The notes under the pieces are model-generated. The model saw only the letters and a list, made by a program, of their open reading frames with translations, searched no databases and had not been told where the DNA came from. Shown here in pieces: positions 34,656 through 63,879 of a stretch of DNA of 64,000 bases; position 1 is the first letter of the stretch; the number at the start of each line of letters is the position of its first letter. Source of the DNA: Halisarca cf. caerulea (taxonomy: Eukaryota > Porifera > Demospongiae > Chondrillida > Halisarcidae); contig CAUJGJ010000040.1 in assembly GCA_963170055.1 (NCBI GenBank), positions 1,552,301 to 1,616,300 on the forward strand, read 5' to 3'. Both the position numbers and the translations under genes were made by a program.

Positions 34656-36983
34656 ATGGCTGTATCGGCAACCTTAAATTATCGTGCAACAAAGGTGCTT
34701 TACCAGTCGCAGAGGAATCAATTTCAAGGAAGATTTCAGTTATTGTCGATTATGAGTCTACGAAAAGCGTTGAAAGCATCAGCAAAGAAGACGGGTATAT
34801 TCGCTAGTTTGACACCGCAGGTGTGACATGTGCACATGTGCAGTTTTACCAAAATGGCCGCCCTAAAGTCGGCTGAAATCAACCCCCACTTTTCTTGCGT
34901 TTAGTGTATTTATGGAATACAAAAAGCATGCAAAACATCGATATGACTATTTAATGCTACAACAGTTCACTTAACTTTGTTGTTAATACTTCGCAAAGCC
35001 GAAGAAACGACCACAGATTCGGACCTAAAAATAACTTTAACGCAAAACCCGGTCATGTAAACCATCGTTTAGAACAGCCATACTTTGTCAAGACCTTTCT
35101 AACATCAATATCTAAATTTTCACCGTGGTCAAACTTACCATTCTCTTTCGTTCCTGAGATGTGCATCAAAAGGTTGTTTTTGACACAGAGTAAAACCACA
35201 AACTTGTGCACATGTCGGGAATGGAGCATGCTATCAAAATCGACCACGGTGAAAATTTAGTTTTACCTGTTGTGATCCAACTCCCGCGACATGGCTTCTC
35301 TACACAACTGTTTAGATGACCGGGTTTTCGAAAGAAATTCACTCGTTGCAAAAGTCTCTCTCTCGCCGTTTGTCACAAGGCGGTCACGCGATATGATGAC
35401 GTCACCAAGCAATGGTAACGATCGGTGACATTGATATTTCTTCTAGCACGAACGAATAACTATTAGAACGTTTTGAAAACACGAAATGTACAGACTATTG
35501 CGATATTCGATACAATTTACTTCGGTTTGAGAAAGACAAGGCCTATATTTCAAGCCGACTTTATAAACATTCACGTGACTAACGCACGTACATTAGTAAA
35601 ACGTGTAAATTTTGAATCAAATTCCTTTGTAAACCACACAACGCCCCTCTGTTTACAGAATATGCACATGTTATACCTGCGACTCAGAGTTTATGTACAA
35701 CTAGCCTGCTTTTAAGCCGTTTTCGTTTTGTTTAGGAGACCAAATTCAAATTGTTCTAGTATTTTGGCCAGACGAAGGGAGTGTTTCCATCTTGAAGAAG
35801 CGTGATCTTGCCGACTCAACAAACTGCAGCATTGGCCAAGAAACGTCCGCGAAAGTCGGTAAATGCTTGTTTAAAGGTATAATAAAGCAAATTGGAAGTT
35901 TAAGCGATGTCAGAACAGCACAGGAATGTTTTGTAAGAGCTCAGCAGAATGAAGATAGAGGGGAAGCCAAGAGAAGCTCCGTATGCAATGTGACCAAGTT
36001 GACAAAGAGAATATCTGCAGAACAAGAACCAAGCCAGCCTGAGAAGAAGAGGAGGAAGAGGAATTCTCAGAGCAAGGGAATAGAAAAAGAACCAACTGCC
36101 AACATTTTACTTGTGTTATCCCATCCTCCCAATGAGAATCCTATCAGCAGAGATCCTGTTCACCAAATCCCCACCTCGGATCCAGCCAGCACTACATCTG
36201 ACACAATTATTGCATCTGATCAACACAATCACTAACTCATATCCCGCGGCCATAGTATCAAGCTGTCATTCTACCATCACAGTCCCATTTCTGTATCTGA
36301 TATGTCTTCAATGACAGATTGTAGCCTGCGGAATACTTCAAATGCAAGTAGTCACTTTCTTGGTTCTTTGTGTTCTCCTGAATCAAATATTGACATTAAG
36401 ACACACTACATAATACAGCAAACTTGAAATTCTTTCAGCACACTACTACGATCTTCTGACAAAGTACACTCAGCTGCAGGTTAATGACCGCCAGGTGCAG
36501 GAACGACTGGACATGTTAGAAACCTACTGTATGATGGGACAACAGTCAGAAATGCCATCATGTACTTATCCATCCATGGACATAAACATGTCTCTGTCCA
36601 TTCCCATGCCACAGAAACTGTTTCCAGGGCGGATATCCAGTACTCTGGTCAAGGTACACTTTTCAAAGCCTCAAAAATTGATAAGTATTGCTGAAGTTAT
36701 CGGGAAATATCCAAAACTACTCTCGAAGGATAAGGCAAGTCGTTTAGCCATCAAAATGGCCCGAGAATCTGTTTTTGGCAATGAGACAATGAGATGCAGT
36801 ACAGTTCGGGGTACTCAGGACCTACCAGCCCTTAATAGTGATGGAATGGATGCCATTAGAAATGCTCTGTTTTCCCGCCTTCCCATCTCATGGAGTAGTT
36901 TAGCAGAATTTGATGATGTGTGGAAGTGTTGTGCGGCAGCAGTTGGACAGAGCTGCAAGTCATTACGGAAGAAATTTGAGTAG
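34656..36983 (+). CDS. Transposon BEN-domain protein (multi-exon, probably decayed)
   Basis: The model has exon 1 ending at 34,794 (ACGG/GTATAT), with an ATG at 34,656 or, in frame, at 34,752. The TATA-like TATAAAAT near 34,650 makes the second more likely. Exon 2 begins at 35,736 after GTTTTGTTTAG with GDQIQIVLVFWPDEGSVS. It runs through a basic, low-complexity region (KKRRKRN). This exon has an in-frame TAA at 36,233, after which the same frame stays open. The last exon begins at 36,439 after TCTTTCAG. It encodes a short helix (TQLQVNDRQVQERLDMLE) and a BEN domain at about 36,640-36,980 (ARESVFGNETM, ...AIRNALFSRL, VGQSCKSLRKKFE). BEN domains bind DNA or chromatin partners. The middle splice junction is not resolved, and the TAA may mean a pseudogene. 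Confidence 0.6.
34816..35681. mobile_element. MITE family beta, complete copy in an intron
   Basis: Inverted ends CGCAGGTGTGACATGTGC and CGCAGGTATAACATGTGC; 866 bp. It is nearly collinear, inverted, with 45,226-46,093. It lies wholly inside the intron 34,795-35,735 of the BEN gene; without it the intron would be about 75 bp. Reading frames inside it are artefacts. Confidence 0.8.
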
Positions 36984-37289
36984 GAATTTTAGTCTAAGAC
37001 TTGTATTATTGGATTATTCTCATGACTGTGACTTTATAAATGTATTATTATATTACTGTAAGCTACAATAATTATCGCAACCATTTTTTATCTTACTTTA
37101 TTGTATCTTGTACTTAATAATAATATGTTTATTGAATTCTTTGACATTGGTCAAAATAAATGACATAATATACTGAACAAAAGTAAGAAAGTTTTATTCA
37201 CTACTAAATGATACAGTACATATATATACAGTCATGTATTTATTAATATGATTAGCAAAGCAGAATAGTCAATGAACATGCACATGCTT

Positions 37290-38156
37290 TCAGTACCCAG
37301 TTGCATCACCATCATTTGCAATCACAGCTGGAATGACTTTTTTCAAGTGCCCTATGTACTTACGGCACTTAGAAATGTCCACAGTTTTCCAAAACTCTTG
37401 GATCCCATCGATTAGTTGCTGCTTTGTTTTTGGTTTGATCTCTCTTCTAATAAATTTCTTCAATTCATGCCATAAATTCTCAATCGGATTGAGGCAATTC
37501 TGGAGGGTCTTCCACCACAAAATGTTGTTTTCTTCAAAAAATTTGCTGGCATACCTTGAGGTATGTTTTGGATCGTTATCTTGTTGGAAGCGATGGCCTG
37601 CTGGGTAATATTCGCGAATAATAGGGATCAAGGCATTCTCCAACAACTTTGTATACATAGGAGTGTTCATCTTGCCCTCAAAGATACAGACTCCTGTTCC
37701 TCCAGCCCAGCTTTTTCCTCCCCACACATGTACTTTTACGGGATGCTTAGGTTTTGGTTTGTACCTTGGTGTGTGAGTCCTTTTCCTGTAATTGAAGCGC
37801 CTGTGAGTTTCCATCTGCACATTGGTTTCATCCGTCCAGATTACATCGTCGAAATTGTCGTTGCGGTTTTCCAGGGCCCAAGTAAGACGCTTGCTTTTGT
37901 TCTGTCTATCCTTCTGCATTTGGCATTCCACGATCGGGTATCCTGTATCGGGTAACGGGTACAGTTGCTTTCCGAGGCCAGATCCTTCCTTTCTTGCGAC
38001 GCTACCGTTAGCGATACATTTTTGGATGAACTTGAAGATACCTGCCCGCGTACAAACCAGATTCTCCTCTAAGAGACACTTTCTTATCGAAGGAACTTTG
38101 AGCCCTTGCGAATGCCAATATAAAATCCTCTGCTGCTTGCACGAACTGTATGCCAT
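37290..38156 (-). pseudogene. Tc1/mariner-type transposase, internally deleted
   Basis: This 288-residue frame has an N-terminal helix-turn-helix (about residues 5-50). The DDE core comprises Asp109 in VIWTDE, Asp193 in FQQDNDPKHT and Glu226 in NPIENLWHELK. Compared with the copy at 61.6-62.5 kb it lacks about 42 residues between the GSGxG motif and the first Asp, which removes most of the second helix-turn-helix. It also lacks two residues just before NPIE, so the second spacing is 32 instead of 34 and SPD is lost. The C-terminus HLKKVIPAVIANDGDATGY is intact. The frame is open, but activity is doubtful. It belongs with the convergent BEN gene. Confidence 0.85.
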
Positions 38157-38340
38157 GAATACGTACTACATTTTACACACCAACACTTCGAATCACGAGG
38201 CAATACCGTCATCTGTGCTCACGTGAGTACACATTATTACTAATCGCAATTTTTTTCAGTGATTACGTTATTACACACAGTAATATGCTCGTAATGCGCA
38301 CGTATTGCAGATTGTGATGTAAACTTTTTTTGATCAGAAG

Positions 38341-57280: not shown

Positions 57281-59627
57281 CGCATGTGGGACATGTCCGC
57301 GCTAATTCGAAGGTGTGAAAATTTCGGTCATTTTTACAACTTCTCAACTTGTACATGTTTTAGAATATCGAAGAAGGACGTTTGTATTTAGTAGACATGT
57401 AAGCTTTTCGTTGAACATGGTTTTTAACGACGGTTGTCTATGTTGAAGCTTCTACGAAGGTTTTCCTTACCCCTATGTGTGAAGGAATTTCTCTGGGTGC
57501 TGCATGGTGAAACGGCTTCTGGGATATATTTTTACATAAATCGCGATAGCAAAGTATTTACTAAGTTTTTCATGCTTCGAAGATGATTAAGAAGGTTTCT
57601 GTCACAAATGCGGAAGGTAAAGAATAGTGAAAGTCAGGTAGCGAGGGTATAGCCAATAAAGTGGTCTTTAGGCAACAACGGGTATGCAAAAAATCGTAAT
57701 GCAGGTATTAACCTTTTACCGACCGTTAGCCACTACAGTGGCTTTTGTAAACAAGTATACTTACCGACCGCGGGTGACGAAATCTCGTGTATAGGCACGA
57801 AATTTATATGGTTCGAAAGGGCTCTTTAAGTATAATGCACATGTCAATTTTTATGGCTATACGTTACAGTATGAGACAAATAAAAAGGTAATAAAATTTG
57901 TTATAAAACGCATTTGTTAACAACAACACGCAAGTATCCAAACAGATTACAGAGTTATACAAACAAAGATGGCCACCGCTCGTAAAGACGTTTAGGGACG
58001 TGGAGTTATTTCCTCGAAATACTCTGCTTAGTATGGTAAATACTGAAGCAGGGAGCAGGGCAAAGTAGAACCGGGGTTTCGGGGCAGCAATCTTTGCAGG
58101 CGTACATCGTTCTCTTCCTTTCCCGGCAAATACGGCACTGGGACGCCTTGTTCGTTTTGTACGGGAAGTGTCTGCCCTGAAGACGGCCCGCTGGTGGTGG
58201 CTGACTGTATGCCTGCCGTTTCCTTGAGCTATGTGACACAAGAAGATGTTCGATAATGGAGAGGACGAACTCTTGGTGAGTTAATTTCTTCGTTGCTGGT
58301 GTCTCCCTGTACAATATGAAGGCGTTCGTGATGGCTGTGTCTAGGAGAAAGAAGTAGATCCTCACCCACCATTTCTTAGATTTACGACTACAAGAATAAG
58401 TCTTGCGTCTAGAGTCGAAGACGTCTACTCCTCCCATGTGCTTGTTATACAAGTTGACGGCCTCAGGGCACAGTATCTGTGATCTTGTCCCATCCTTGTT
58501 CCGCCTCGGGACATGTGTTTGCTTGATTGGGTCGGCAACGTTATTTAGGAAGGCTACACCCTTGTTATCTTTCCAAACAATGCACTGAATTCCCTGAACT
58601 AGCTTGCATACACTTTCACCTCGTTGCATGTTCTTTGTCAGAACTTTAATGTTTTTGAATTCTACTGGCCAGTGCTTACGCCCTGTCCTCATGGTGCCGA
58701 TTGTGTAGGTGCTGTTTTCTGCTAGTTTCAGAGCCAGGGGATGCTACTAAAGTAGTTATCCATGTAGATATGATGGTTGGCACCATATAGTGGCTGTACC
58801 AGATTCTGAACCACTCTAGAAGACAGTGAATCCTCATTGTTGCTGCCTGTAGCCCCTGTGTAGAGTGCCATGTTGTAGAGATAGCCGTTTGTAGAGTCAC
58901 AAAGGCACCACATTTTGTATCCCCTCTTGATCGGTTTCATGGGCATGTACTGCTTCATTACGCTGCGACCCTTGAATAGAATCATGGCCTCGTCCACAGC
59001 AAGTTGCTGGTGGGGTTGATAGCTGGCCTGACTGTTAAGGCGGATCTTCTCCATCAGTGGCCTGACCTTGTATAATTTGTCGTACTCTGGGTCATCACGC
59101 CCTGGCATCCTGGAATTGTCATTTAGATGGAGATGACTGAGGATAGAGTGGAATCTGTTTCGTCCCATTCCAGAGACCATTCCAGGTGCATTGAGAATGG
59201 GATTGGTGCTCCAGTAATCATATGCTGATGGTAGTCGCACCATTCCCATTGCTAGTTGAATTCCTATAAAGGACTTCAATTCCTCGTCACGGACATCCTC
59301 CCACTTTGCTGTGTTTTTTTGTGCAGCATAAAAGTTGGTCTGATGTGCTATTGTAGCAAATTTGTCCTCTCCCCATACAGTACACGTCATAAAAAACATG
59401 ACGGTAAACAGTAACCAAAATCCAGACAATCGTTACCATTAAGGCGTTAACCGCTATCCGGTAATTTTTTTCGGAAAGCCGTCAACATTTAACGGCGTGC
59501 TAATATTAATAATATTCATAACTTCCTACCGCGATATTGTAATAAGGCGCTAAGCTGCCCGATCGAGGTGAAACATCGCGGATTTCGTTGAGAGTCGTAG
59601 CGCTTTTATTCAGTGATTCAGTGGACC

Positions 59628-61184
59628 ATGGACAAAGTTTTACTCAAGTATGAGGATAATGGATCGTCGAGGTATGATGGGAAAGAGTATTTTGAGCTGG
59701 TTTCCAAAGTTAGAAGGGATGAAAATGTTCGAGGCCCACTCAAGGTCGGTGAACGGGTAACGGTGAAGACAAAGACTTGCTTGCGGAAGGCTGTCATAGT
59801 AAATGTCAACCCGGATGCCCTTCCCAAGAAAAGAAGAACGACAGGGAAGCGAGTACCAGCTAAAGAACAAGCATCCAGAGCAGTGCTAGTATCATTTCCT
59901 CCAGCTGAAGCCACCACACCTTCTTCCCCCCCACCTGTCTCACAACCCAACCCTCCATTGGAATCACCCTCACCCATCCTCTTCTCACAACCACCCTCAC
60001 CCATCCTCTTCTCACAACCACCCTCACCCACCCCATTGTCACAACCACCCTCACCCATCCCTTCGCAACCACCCTCACCCATCCCTTCGCAACCACCCTC
60101 ACCCATCCCCTCACTACCACCCTCACCCATCTCACAACCCGCCTCTCTATTCGTACCACCTTCGTCCATGCCTGTCTCACAACCCGCCTCTCTATTTGTA
60201 CCACCTTCATCCATGCCTGTATCACAAACCGCCTCGTTATTTGTACCACCTTCATCCATGCCTGTCTCACAAACAGCCTCTCTATCTGTACCACCTTCGT
60301 CCATGCCTGTCTCACATCCTATCTCAGCACTGACCACATCATCCTCTGTTCTATCATTTCACTCCATACAGCAGACAGCGGCATCCTCTTCTCATATCTC
60401 TTTTCAACCACTTAACTCCACACTAATCACAACATCTCCTCATATCCCTTTCCAACCATTGAACTCCACACATCAGGCCACAACATCTTATACCCTTTTT
60501 GAATCTCAGCCATCCTACCATACTCCCAGTGAACGTCTGGATTCTGCACCAATCATGCCATCTCAGTCAATGCTCGTTCCCCCAATTGCGCCCACACTTG
60601 GCCCTGTAGTGATGCCAGATGAGGACATGCTGGATCATCTGATCTATGACAGGCCAGAACCGACCTTGAATGTACAGCTGGATAGGATTCAGAAGTTTTT
60701 GGAAGCTTTTCAAGCCCAAGTTTTTCAGCGACTAGATAAGCTTGAAGCCTCATTACAAACAAGAAGGCAAGAGACCCCGCGTATCTCCCAGGCCCATACA
60801 GCAAGTGCTTGTCTGCCAAGAAGGCCACTGGCTGATGTAAATGGGCAATACCAACTCACAGCAGCAATGGATGCAAAGCTTCAGGGCATAATCGCGAGCC
60901 CAAGGATTAATGGACCAGTCCATCTCGGCTTAGAACTTGCCAAAGTACTGTATACAGAAGAGGAGATGGCTTCTAGTACCTTGACGGGTAGAAAGGTGAA
61001 CGGCCAATGTAGGCAAATGCTGGATTTGGGGAGACTAAATTTGATAGACCAGCTTGTGCAGAGAAGATTTTCCCTAGGAGAAGCAGAGTTTGCTGGTATT
61101 AGAAGTGGAATTCGAGACTCCATGGCGAATCGCTGCAAGTACCTAAGGTTAAAGTTAGCTCCCAGGAACATTTCCGTTATCTAA
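59628..61184 (+). CDS. Transposon-borne BEN-domain protein
   Basis: 518 residues from the ATG at 59,628, which has a strong context (GACCATGG). An upstream in-frame GTG at 59,613 is less likely. Order: a small N-terminal domain (about 1-62, with KVGERVTVKTKTCLRKAVIV); a basic patch KKRRTTGKR (67-74), a possible nuclear signal; a Pro/Ser-rich linker (95-330) containing SQPPSPIP repeats and four 15-residue repeats of PASLFVPPSSMPVSQ type (171-230); a predicted amphipathic helix (347-380, QLDRIQKFLEAFQAQVFQRL); and a BEN domain (430-511) with LAKVLYTEEEM, CRQMLDLGRLNLIDQLVQRRF and IRSGIRDSMANRCKYLRLKL. BEN domains bind DNA or chromatin partners. A role in target choice, excision control or silencing is inference. 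No frame break was seen. Confidence 0.8.
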   Translation: MDKVLLKYEDNGSSRYDGKEYFELVSKVRRDENVRGPLKVGERVTVKTKTCLRKAVIVNVNPDALPKKRRTTGKRVPAKEQASRAVLVSFPPAEATTPSSPPPVSQPNPPLESPSPILFSQPPSPILFSQPPSPTPLSQPPSPIPSQPPSPIPSQPPSPIPSLPPSPISQPASLFVPPSSMPVSQPASLFVPPSSMPVSQTASLFVPPSSMPVSQTASLSVPPSSMPVSHPISALTTSSSVLSFHSIQQTAASSSHISFQPLNSTLITTSPHIPFQPLNSTHQATTSYTLFESQPSYHTPSERLDSAPIMPSQSMLVPPIAPTLGPVVMPDEDMLDHLIYDRPEPTLNVQLDRIQKFLEAFQAQVFQRLDKLEASLQTRRQETPRISQAHTASACLPRRPLADVNGQYQLTAAMDAKLQGIIASPRINGPVHLGLELAKVLYTEEEMASSTLTGRKVNGQCRQMLDLGRLNLIDQLVQRRFSLGEAEFAGIRSGIRDSMANRCKYLRLKLAPRNISVI

Positions 61185-61635
61185 CCTTATGCATGTTGTA
61201 TGTCTTACTCACTCACTGTACTTTTATATATGTTGCATGAATGACAAACGTGTATTGTAACAAACTTGTTTCCTTTTTGGTTAATATGTTAAATATTTTA
61301 TACTCTATATGCACTATATATTTATATATTTTATACTCTATACTCTATGATTAATAAGAGGGTTCGGACGGCTATGCCTACACGCGACAACATTTAAACA
61401 ACGCTGTACATGACATTGTATGTCAATATCCAAAAAATATTAATTTACATAGCATATAAATGTATCAAAATGTAACATCTCTTACAATAATGCACATGCA
61501 TGACAATATCAACTAGACAATACAACAAAAAGTGGTTCTAAGAAAGTTAGTAACCTGTAGCTTCTCCATTGACTTCTATTACTTTTGGTATAACTTTCTT
61601 TAAATGTTCTATGTACCTACAACACTTCTCCAGTG

Positions 61636-62544
61636 TCACAGTGGCCAGAAAGACTGTATGGCATGCAACAAATCCTCCTTGGTTGTGGGCTTGGCTATCG
61701 ATCGGATGAAGTTCTTCAATTCATGCCACAGATTCTCGATGGGGTTTAAGTCTGGGCTCTCAGGTGGGGTCTTCAAAAGTGAAATGTTGTGCCTTTCGAA
61801 AAAATCGCACGTTGCTCTTGCAGTATGGCAGGGAGCGTTGTCCTGTTGGAAAATTCCGTTTGGAAGACGATCTCGAAGAAAGGGTAAAAGATGGGTACGC
61901 AGTACCTCCTGGTAGACAGCACTGTTTACCGAACAGTTCAAAATGCAAATATTCGTGGCCCCTTTCTTCGAAATTCCAGCCCATACCATAACTTTGTAGG
62001 GGTGCTTCACTCTCGCTTTCCTTTTCGGTTGAGATCCAACTTTTCGATAAGAATAAGTGCGGTTGTTTTCCAACTGAATTGTGGATTCGTCTGTCCATAC
62101 TACGTTATCGAAACTTTCGTGCAGGTTAGCTCTTGCCCACTCCACTCTCTTCTCCTTGTTGGCATGCTGAATTAACTGGCAGTAGCGGCTACCGTGGAAC
62201 GTCCACCCTAGCATCTTCCTAGCTCTCTCCACGGTACTCAGCGAAACTTTCCACCCCCTTTCCTCCAGCATTTTCACAAGTTGAGTTGATGTTGTCTCGT
62301 CGTCTTGCTGCATTCTTTCTTCGATCGCTGTCACCATTGCCCCAGTTAGCTTGAACGGTCTGCCACTTCCCGGGAGACGCAATATTGTCCCGTGCTTCTT
62401 ATACTTTTGTACAGTTGCCCACACGGTCTGCTTGGGTCCTCGAAGCCCTTCCGCTGCAAGAACATGGACCACATTTCCATAGGAAACCCTTCTCTCAAAG
62501 TACAGTTGAATAATTCGCTGCTTACAGTAAGCTGTCAAAACCAT
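61636..62544 (-). CDS. Tc1-type DD34E transposase, C-terminal frameshift
   Basis: 302 residues in frame. A bipartite N-terminal DNA-binding region has one helix-turn-helix at about 5-50, a GSGRPFKL hook at 59-66, and a second helix-turn-helix at about 70-112. The catalytic triad is Asp152 (VVWTDES), Asp235 (IFQQDNAPCHTA) and Glu270 (SPDLNPIENLW), with exactly 34 residues between the last two. The frame ends early at SFWPL. In another frame the homologous tail EKCCRYIEHLKKVIPKVIE...GEATGY continues to a stop at 61,547-61,549. A single-base loss near 61,643-61,645 explains this. The enzyme should cut at its CAGT-type inverted repeats and insert at TA. Loss of the last 30 or so residues may or may not abolish activity. 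Confidence 0.9.
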   Translation of the reverse strand: MVLTAYCKQRIIQLYFERRVSYGNVVHVLAAEGLRGPKQTVWATVQKYKKHGTILRLPGSGRPFKLTGAMVTAIEERMQQDDETTSTQLVKMLEERGWKVSLSTVERARKMLGWTFHGSRYCQLIQHANKEKRVEWARANLHESFDNVVWTDESTIQLENNRTYSYRKVGSQPKRKARVKHPYKVMVWAGISKKGATNICILNCSVNSAVYQEVLRTHLLPFLRDRLPNGIFQQDNAPCHTARATCDFFERHNISLLKTPPESPDLNPIENLWHELKNFIRSIAKPTTKEDLLHAIQSFWPL

Positions 62545-63879
62545 CCCGCGACTTATCGTCTATTGATCTATAATAGATACTCGACCTGTTTAAAAGGCAA
62601 CGGGCGCTAAATTATAGCGAAAAAACGTTAACTTCCGATAACCCTTATCGTTTAGCGTTTAACCGTCAACGCTTAATAGTTATCACTTTTCTTGCAACAG
62701 TTAACTGTTTTTGGATACCGTCACGTTTTTTATGACGTGTACTGTATTTTGCAGATGTCATATGGCTTGCTGTCTTCATCAACATCAATGAGGACTGATC
62801 TTCTTGGACCTGGCACTGGCGTGAATGACTCACTTGCTGATGGAAGCACAGTGGCTGACTCACTGCTTGGTGCAGGAGATGATACAGGCTGAACTGTGGA
62901 TTCCTCAGCCTCCTCTAGGATGGTGTCCTCCTGGCAATCTTCAATCCTGTCCAGAGGGTCCTCAGCTTCGTGGTGCCCAGAGGACACAAAGCTGTCGACT
63001 CCATCATCAAGCGCGTCTGGAACCAAGTCATCGTCAGAATCACACCAATCACTGTCCTCACCGTTCATGTCATCCATTACTTTGTTAAATGCTATGTACT
63101 GTGCCATTGTTCTTTAATTCTGAGTGTGTAGTATAATGAAATTTGCTTGTATAAAACGCTGTGAAGTACTTGATAGCTCGCCGAGATTAACATACATTAA
63201 ACCCGGACTTTGTGTAGCTAAAAGCCCAGAAAGACGGCGTTAACCATCGACGGCCTACCACGAGCACCAAACACTTAAACGCTCGCAATAGAGCTACCGA
63301 AACAGGCATGCAGGATTATCTATGGTAGCTCGAGCAAGAAACCTAACATTCTATGCTAAACAGCATCATGATCACCATTAATGAACATACTGAAGTTATA
63401 ATGGCCACTTGAACGAAAGCGAAGGTCCTTTGAACTGATATACGTACTCGTACGGCAAAACAAAGCTGTCTGTGCTTCTGGCAAGACAGATCAAGAACTG
63501 AAAAGTTAGCGCCACTGTAGTGGCTAATGGTCTTTAACGGGGTTTAGTCACATGTCAGCATGTGACAGAGCATCGGTGACGACAAAAAACATCACTAAAC
63601 ATGGATTCGGCATTCGTATACACCTGAATAACAACACGAATCACGAGATAAAAGTGTGACAAATATTTTATAGGTGCCAAAATATAATATTTCATCACTA
63701 TGCAAACTGAGAAGCACTATCATAACAAATGTGGACATGTCCCACATGCGAATGTTTTCTAATGACATATATTGGGGGAACACTGCAAGGAAATCAGGAA
63801 ACCTCTGTATGCAGGACTATTTTGGTGATTCCCACGGTGTCTGCATTATAGAGATTCTACTGTATCTGCACTTTAACAC

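Follow-up and report, generated by a model that had tools for sequence, protein, structure and literature searches.

What does a second gene do in a transposon group that is usually described as encoding only a transposase? This question is raised by a Tc1/mariner element in the genome of the sponge Halisarca cf. caerulea (194.5 Mb in 454 contigs). Tc1/mariner elements are among the most widespread transposon groups and are the base of common gene-delivery tools. The element is located at positions 59376-62746 of a stretch of 64,000 bp, C40:1552301-1616300, which is designated the "window"; positions without a contig name refer to it. A first-pass annotation of the window had read a DD34E transposase and a 518-codon frame with a C-terminal BEN pattern at this site, and had proposed the BEN protein as an element-encoded partner of the transposase. 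The window element belongs to a large Tc1/mariner clade, is of the autonomous type and has the DD34E transposase and a Tudor-like/BEN gene as one unit. The single-gene description, a common usage rather than a strict definition, does not fit it.

The two-gene element of the window

The element comprises 3371 bp including the TA at each end (59376-59377 and 62745-62746). Its left terminal inverted repeat (59376-59406, plus strand, TA included) and the right one (62716-62746, minus strand) are identical at 30 of 31 bases, and a separate repeat computation yielded 41 nt at 88%. The insertion interrupts a minus-strand frame for a piggyBac-like transposase, parts of which are at 58006-59375 and 62747-63107. 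When the flanks were joined on a single TA, a continuous 338-codon piggyBac-like frame resulted; Pfam DDE_Tnp_1_7 matches two frames downstream of the insertion site. Uninterrupted counterparts of the site were found at four other places in the genome: C40:3229162-3229360 as the best (95% over the 200 joined bases), C40:1448809 (90% over positions 37-199 of the joined flanks), C369:7892600 (86%) and C412:5722619 (72%). This confirmed a TA-flanked Tc1/mariner element, with the target-site duplication of this superfamily and a clean empty site in a piggyBac-like frame, and both the duplication and the inverted repeats of about 30 bp had been read correctly at first.

Gene 1 (61636-62544, minus strand, 302 codons) and gene 2 (59628-61184, plus strand, 518 codons) are convergent and lie inside the same inverted repeats, as initially described. 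The product of gene 1 matches Pfam DDE_3 (PF13358) with 83.8 bits against a cut-off of 28.6 (E 1.4e-23). A helix-turn-helix (HTH) region was counted as present on the basis of HTH_Tnp_Tc3_2, with 31.5 bits exactly at its cut-off, while HTH_32 reached 30.4 bits, below its cut-off of 33.7. The Pfam matches at E values up to 10 consisted of DDE_3, the two HTH models and a weak PepSY_2 match, with no PIF/Harbinger-type transposase signature among them. Sleeping Beauty was the closest solved chain by sequence (1.5e-23). Residues D152, D235 and E270 are invariant in a 12-row alignment with 34 residues between the last two, which upholds the DD34E assignment; judged from this alignment, the three residues are the putative catalytic triad. 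The window transposase is C-terminally shorter, by about 35 residues, than the 11 relatives aligned with it, so that the window copy looks damaged. This C-terminal loss had not been recognized before, and neither had a probable N-terminal Tudor-like domain in gene 2.

The C-terminal domain of gene 2 (60897-61163, plus strand) required more than one profile. With the full protein, Pfam BEN (PF10523) scored 18.5 bits, and with the isolated domain 22.8 bits, both below the cut-off of 23.2; the single sequence thus did not pass the profile check suggested at first. The assignment was carried instead by the family and the fold. A family profile of the element BEN domains matched BEND3 (1.1e-11) and BANP (1.7e-7), and all 19 members of the underlying alignment matched BEN at E values up to 1; this alignment contains 19 of 22 BEN stretches, without L054 (stop codon), L090 and L026. 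A Foldseek search with the predicted domain gave BEN domains for all of the top 16 matches, with a best E value of 0.0047 and a probability of 1.00 for the first 11. The predicted domain can thus be firmly assigned as a BEN domain, with profile and fold matches to BANP, BEND3 and BEND6. A fold match also proposes the N-terminal 70 residues (59628-59837, plus strand) as a probable Tudor-like domain. A single-sequence search of the PDB with the 518-residue protein gave no match. Human BEND5 may be a look-alike of the whole architecture of gene 2.

Other copies of the window family are damaged or incomplete. One on C227 has both ends together with insertions and stops, and a further one, on C323, consists of the BEN half without any transposase match. 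Two copies, C226:2120015-2120692 (678 bp) and C226:2491862-2492573 (712 bp), have TA at both ends, keep both element ends without most of both genes and possess an identical internal junction (query 336/3038); they are non-autonomous derivatives of the window family.

Pairing and shared history of the two genes

With Pfam BEN alone, 50 places were found in the genome (35 over the cut-off), and 39 of them were no more than 3 kb from a transposase match, 32 convergent, 5 divergent and 2 on the same strand. A wider tally was composed of Pfam BEN, four element BEN-protein queries and a local profile. It contained 128 BEN-type loci, 96 of which have a Tc1/mariner-type DDE match within 3.5 kb (74 convergent, 20 divergent, 2 same strand). 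Seen from the other gene, the window transposase matches 114 loci, which make up the clade transposase set; a BEN-type locus was found within 3.5 kb of 89 of them (70 convergent, 18 divergent, 1 same strand), compared to 6 of 56 other DDE_3 loci. The DDE matches of these 6 are weak or partial, and they may be decayed clade members. The chance expectation is about 0.005 per locus. Before the fourth-clade query was added, the numbers were 61 of 114 and 5 of 56. All locus counts are lower bounds from the best 130 of 501 and the best 150 of 277 candidates. The BEN tally left out 19 rows whose match was restricted to the low-complexity N-terminal region of the query and one weak row (C399:784286); at least two of the 128 loci have their match outside the BEN domain (C150:2739448, and C448:1896115, which reaches only its start), and one gene on C12 is counted twice.

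The relatives of the window element therefore do not lack the BEN gene throughout, nor is this gene a single-copy host gene that was captured once, the two findings that the first-pass annotation had named as fatal to its proposal. No BEN-type locus was found near 25 of the 114 clade transposase loci, two of which were read: at C369:5648813, the sequence enters a gap of N, and at C412:7047063, the stretch examined around the transposase contains no BEN gene. Scanning viral contigs with the transposase alignment, the only look outside this genome, yielded 30 stretches that fit the pattern, none of them a relative.

Of 55 genome stretches examined, 17 contain a two-gene element with inverted repeats of the CAGT or CGGT type on both sides, a count limited by the many stretches that reach only one element end. 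TA is present at both ends in 16 of these 17, and one (C226a) is without TA on one side. Divergent gene order occurs in the elements at C226:2643148-2646385, C290:2365396-2368386, C412:6901043-6904276 and C79:1402415-1405405.

Distances between BEN domains and between transposases were compared for 33 non-redundant pairs out of 44, after removal of 1 pair on the same strand, 2 in which transposase coverage was short and 8 whose BEN sequences were identical. BEN matches of at least 60 bits were kept, which placed the weakest clade (C303, C47) outside the trees, and at some loci in the trees the joined transposase pieces overlap. The Mantel correlation was 0.894, with 0 of 5000 permutations as high, and 22 of 30 splits were common to both trees, compared to a mean of 0.24 and a maximum of 3 after label permutation. 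The seven elements with the divergent layout group as a single clade in the two trees (support 0.953 and 1.0); on the evidence of these trees, the divergent layout is a single rearrangement of gene order inside the element. Over a long diversification, the transposase and BEN genes were passed on together.

Among 25 pairs of BEN domains with 60-85% amino-acid identity, the median pN was 0.24 and the median pS 0.86; by this measure, the BEN domain is under purifying selection. Close copies gave Nei-Gojobori (NG86) omega values for BEN of 0.32 (window versus C323) and of 0.53 to 1.17 in eight other close pairs with measurable dS, a weaker signal that is expected if copies drift after insertion. 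The two-gene unit also moved recently: the copies at C30:109873-114117 (4245 bp) and C176:1925054-1929316 (4263 bp) are alike except for 1 mismatch and one 18-base gap, and their flanks are different. Congruent trees, purifying selection and the movement of the two-gene unit support the idea that the BEN protein is a partner encoded by the element.

Some further observations concern single loci. The window contains a second, decayed member of the two-gene superfamily at 35738-38165, with a BEN region (36675-36974, plus strand), a Tudor-like piece (35738-35890, plus strand) preceded by a stretch that resembles a splice acceptor by eye, and a transposase frame (37293-38165, minus strand); a search for its inverted repeats found none. 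In the C30 family, a Tudor-like start can be read by eye near the BEN-side end (C30:113467-113973), in a frame separate from and upstream of the BEN frame at 111533-112609, which may indicate an intron or a break in the frame. A stretch at C448:1896115-1897002 is 100% identical to residues 1-296 of the C30-family BEN protein and lies inside a 2001-codon open frame, with no transposase match within 3.5 kb. A 284-codon frame at L011:2520-3371, PIF/Harbinger transposase-like by eye, adjoins the transposase at C40:2802811.

Subterminal arrays and the role of the BEN protein

An indication of what the partner may do comes from the sequences just inside the inverted repeats. In the window element, the zones comprising bases 35-134 from each end, which are the proposed BEN-binding zones, are located at 59410-59509 with one GTTAAC palindrome (59446-59451) and at 62613-62712 with two (62627-62632 and 62700-62705). 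Repeated words were evaluated in 14 of the 17 bounded elements with known ends (without C412c, C79div and C227w), with dinucleotide shuffles as control, and the pooled palindrome and clade word tests used 13 elements, also without C30s; all array tests cover the ends of BEN-carrying elements only. Repeated 6-mers were in excess (p 0.01 or less) at bases 35-134 in 12 of 14 elements, the exceptions being the window copy itself (p 0.11) and C29 (p 0.06); the window relatives C226a and C290w were significant (p 0.003). At bases 235-334, an excess was found in one element of 14 (C290div). Words common to both ends were in excess at bases 35-134 in 10 of 14 elements. Palindromes of 6 bases were in excess there in 2 of 14 elements when these were tested singly. 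When the elements were pooled, palindromes of 6, 8 and 10 bases numbered 75, 32 and 13 at bases 35-134, versus expectations of 41.6, 13.7 and 4.5 (p 0.003, the lowest value that the test can give), and no pooled excess was found at bases 135-234, 235-334 or 401-500.

About three motif classes exist in this one genome. The clade of the window element uses GTTAAC (3 of 5 elements) or CG(T/C)TAA words. The main clade uses CGAG-centered words, 4 to 13 per outer 300 bases in each of 5 elements versus 0 to 2 in the clade of the window, with palindromes such as GAGTACTC, CTCGCGAG and GTGTACAC. The divergent clade has GCGGAA in 2 of 3 elements. Word-profile similarity in the subterminal zone was 0.227 for elements of one clade and 0.069 for elements of different clades (1 of 5000 permutations). 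A smaller effect of the same kind was present in the inner zone (0.132 versus 0.099, 2 of 5000), which indicates that shared ancestry contributes to it.

The first-pass annotation had named DNA binding, targeting or escape from silencing as possible functions of the partner, and the arrays favor binding at the ends. We assign a probability of roughly 60% to the BEN protein being a functional component of the two-gene element that binds the end arrays and assists the transposase there, in analogy to the Myb-like protein in PIF/Harbinger. The binding sites of the BEN domain, probably a dimer, would be the short palindromes in the zones at bases 35-134, and this binding would mark or bridge the two element ends. 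The BEN protein might recruit or stabilize the transposase, aiding its assembly at the ends or its access to them and possibly also its nuclear entry, and the Tudor-like domain could contact histones or another chromatin partner, allowing the complex to work in, or insert into, chromatin. The BEN domains of BANP and NACC1 were solved on palindromic DNA, as given in an excerpt of PMC11472053, where the BANP DNA holds CTCGCGAG as its core and the NACC1 palindrome contains ACATGT, a motif also named in an excerpt of PMC7764960. The sequence CTCGCGAG occurs in the arrays of C290b and C412c. A broader proposal is that the whole old clade uses an obligate two-protein transposition, in which palindrome arrays specific to each clade are recognized by the Tudor-like/BEN protein and the transposase is linked to chromatin through it, in parallel to PIF/Harbinger; this is more tentative, and we would give it slightly less than even odds.

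BEN and Tudor domains are domains of chromatin proteins, and arrays at the ends would also let such a protein coat the element. The BEN/Tudor-like protein might then be an anti-silencing or chromatin factor that binds the ends and keeps them open or shields them from host repression, outside of the transposition reaction itself. This is unlikely, since the arrays cluster close to the inverted repeats, within about 130 bases, rather than along the element or, in the divergent clade, at the gene starts in the center.

The position of these gene starts bears also on a second alternative, that the BEN protein is a transcription regulator, an auto-repressor or activator, of both element genes, with the promoters of the convergent layout in or beside the subterminal array zones. 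In the window copy, the two genes begin shortly past these zones, at distances of about 250 and 200 bases to the ends, and BEN proteins of described function are linked to repression in the excerpted text of PMC12367297. In the divergent clade, however, the gene starts face the center while the array words are still mostly terminal (weakly so in C226div, and with words that were chosen from the ends), which favors a function at the ends over one restricted to promoters. A promoter-only role was consequently dropped as the leading explanation, and regulation is retained as a rival that we regard as rather improbable.

That the BEN gene is a mere passenger, a host gene or other mobile element captured or nested with no functional link to the transposase, might be read from the C323 copy and from the 32 of 128 BEN-type loci without a transposase within 3.5 kb, but is very improbable and already contradicted by the repeated pairing, the two fixed layouts, the congruent trees, purifying selection and shared movement, with chance neighborhood or nesting ruled out by the pairing counts versus 0.005 per locus together with the trees, and one-off capture by the recurrence of the pairing and the same trees.

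Comparison with known systems

The window class agrees with the IS630-Tc1-mariner group, including Sleeping Beauty and Mos1, in its TA duplication, DDE_3 domain, DD34E signature, HTH region and CAGT ends, and differs by a second conserved gene and by short-word arrays just inside short inverted repeats. No BEN-carrying Tc1/mariner element was among the literature matches listed, in a search outside Repbase, Dfam, preprints and most subscription journals, so that an earlier catalog entry may exist.

The second protein shares the BEN fold with BANP, BEND3, BEND6, NACC1, Insensitive and Bsg25A, and its presumed palindromic target DNA with the BANP and NACC1 structures. It differs from these proteins in being encoded by a transposon and in its probable N-terminal Tudor-like domain. 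The Ben genes of bracoviruses also encode a C-terminal BEN domain in a protein carried by mobile DNA (PMC4574769, in excerpt), but they are borne by a virus and possess an N-terminal PHA02737 domain, and the excerpt mentions no transposase partner. If the broader proposal is true, elements of the type described here would readily provide hosts with BEN-domain chromatin factors, and the finding bears on the origin of the animal BEN proteins.

The closest parallel in organization is PIF/Harbinger, with its transposase and Myb-like/MADF protein. Mobilization in that system needs two element proteins, according to an excerpt of PMC2836001, and the Myb-like protein of Harbinger3_DR is an interaction partner of the transposase that binds a subterminal motif of 9 bp, as stated in an excerpt of PMC9710019. 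Here as well, two proteins are encoded, one of them a separate, predicted DNA-binding protein, and the combination of a second protein with subterminal arrays is present, as far as can be read from the sequence. The transposase belongs to another family and the second protein (BEN plus Tudor-like) is unrelated, so that the likeness would be a convergent solution at most. The clade has retained its second, chromatin-type protein over deep divergence, which allows one to examine whether BEN specificity and target arrays changed together. If the proposed role is true, Tc1/mariner, usually seen as a one-protein system, would provide a further natural case, in addition to PIF/Harbinger, of a DNA transposon that has its own DNA-binding partner.

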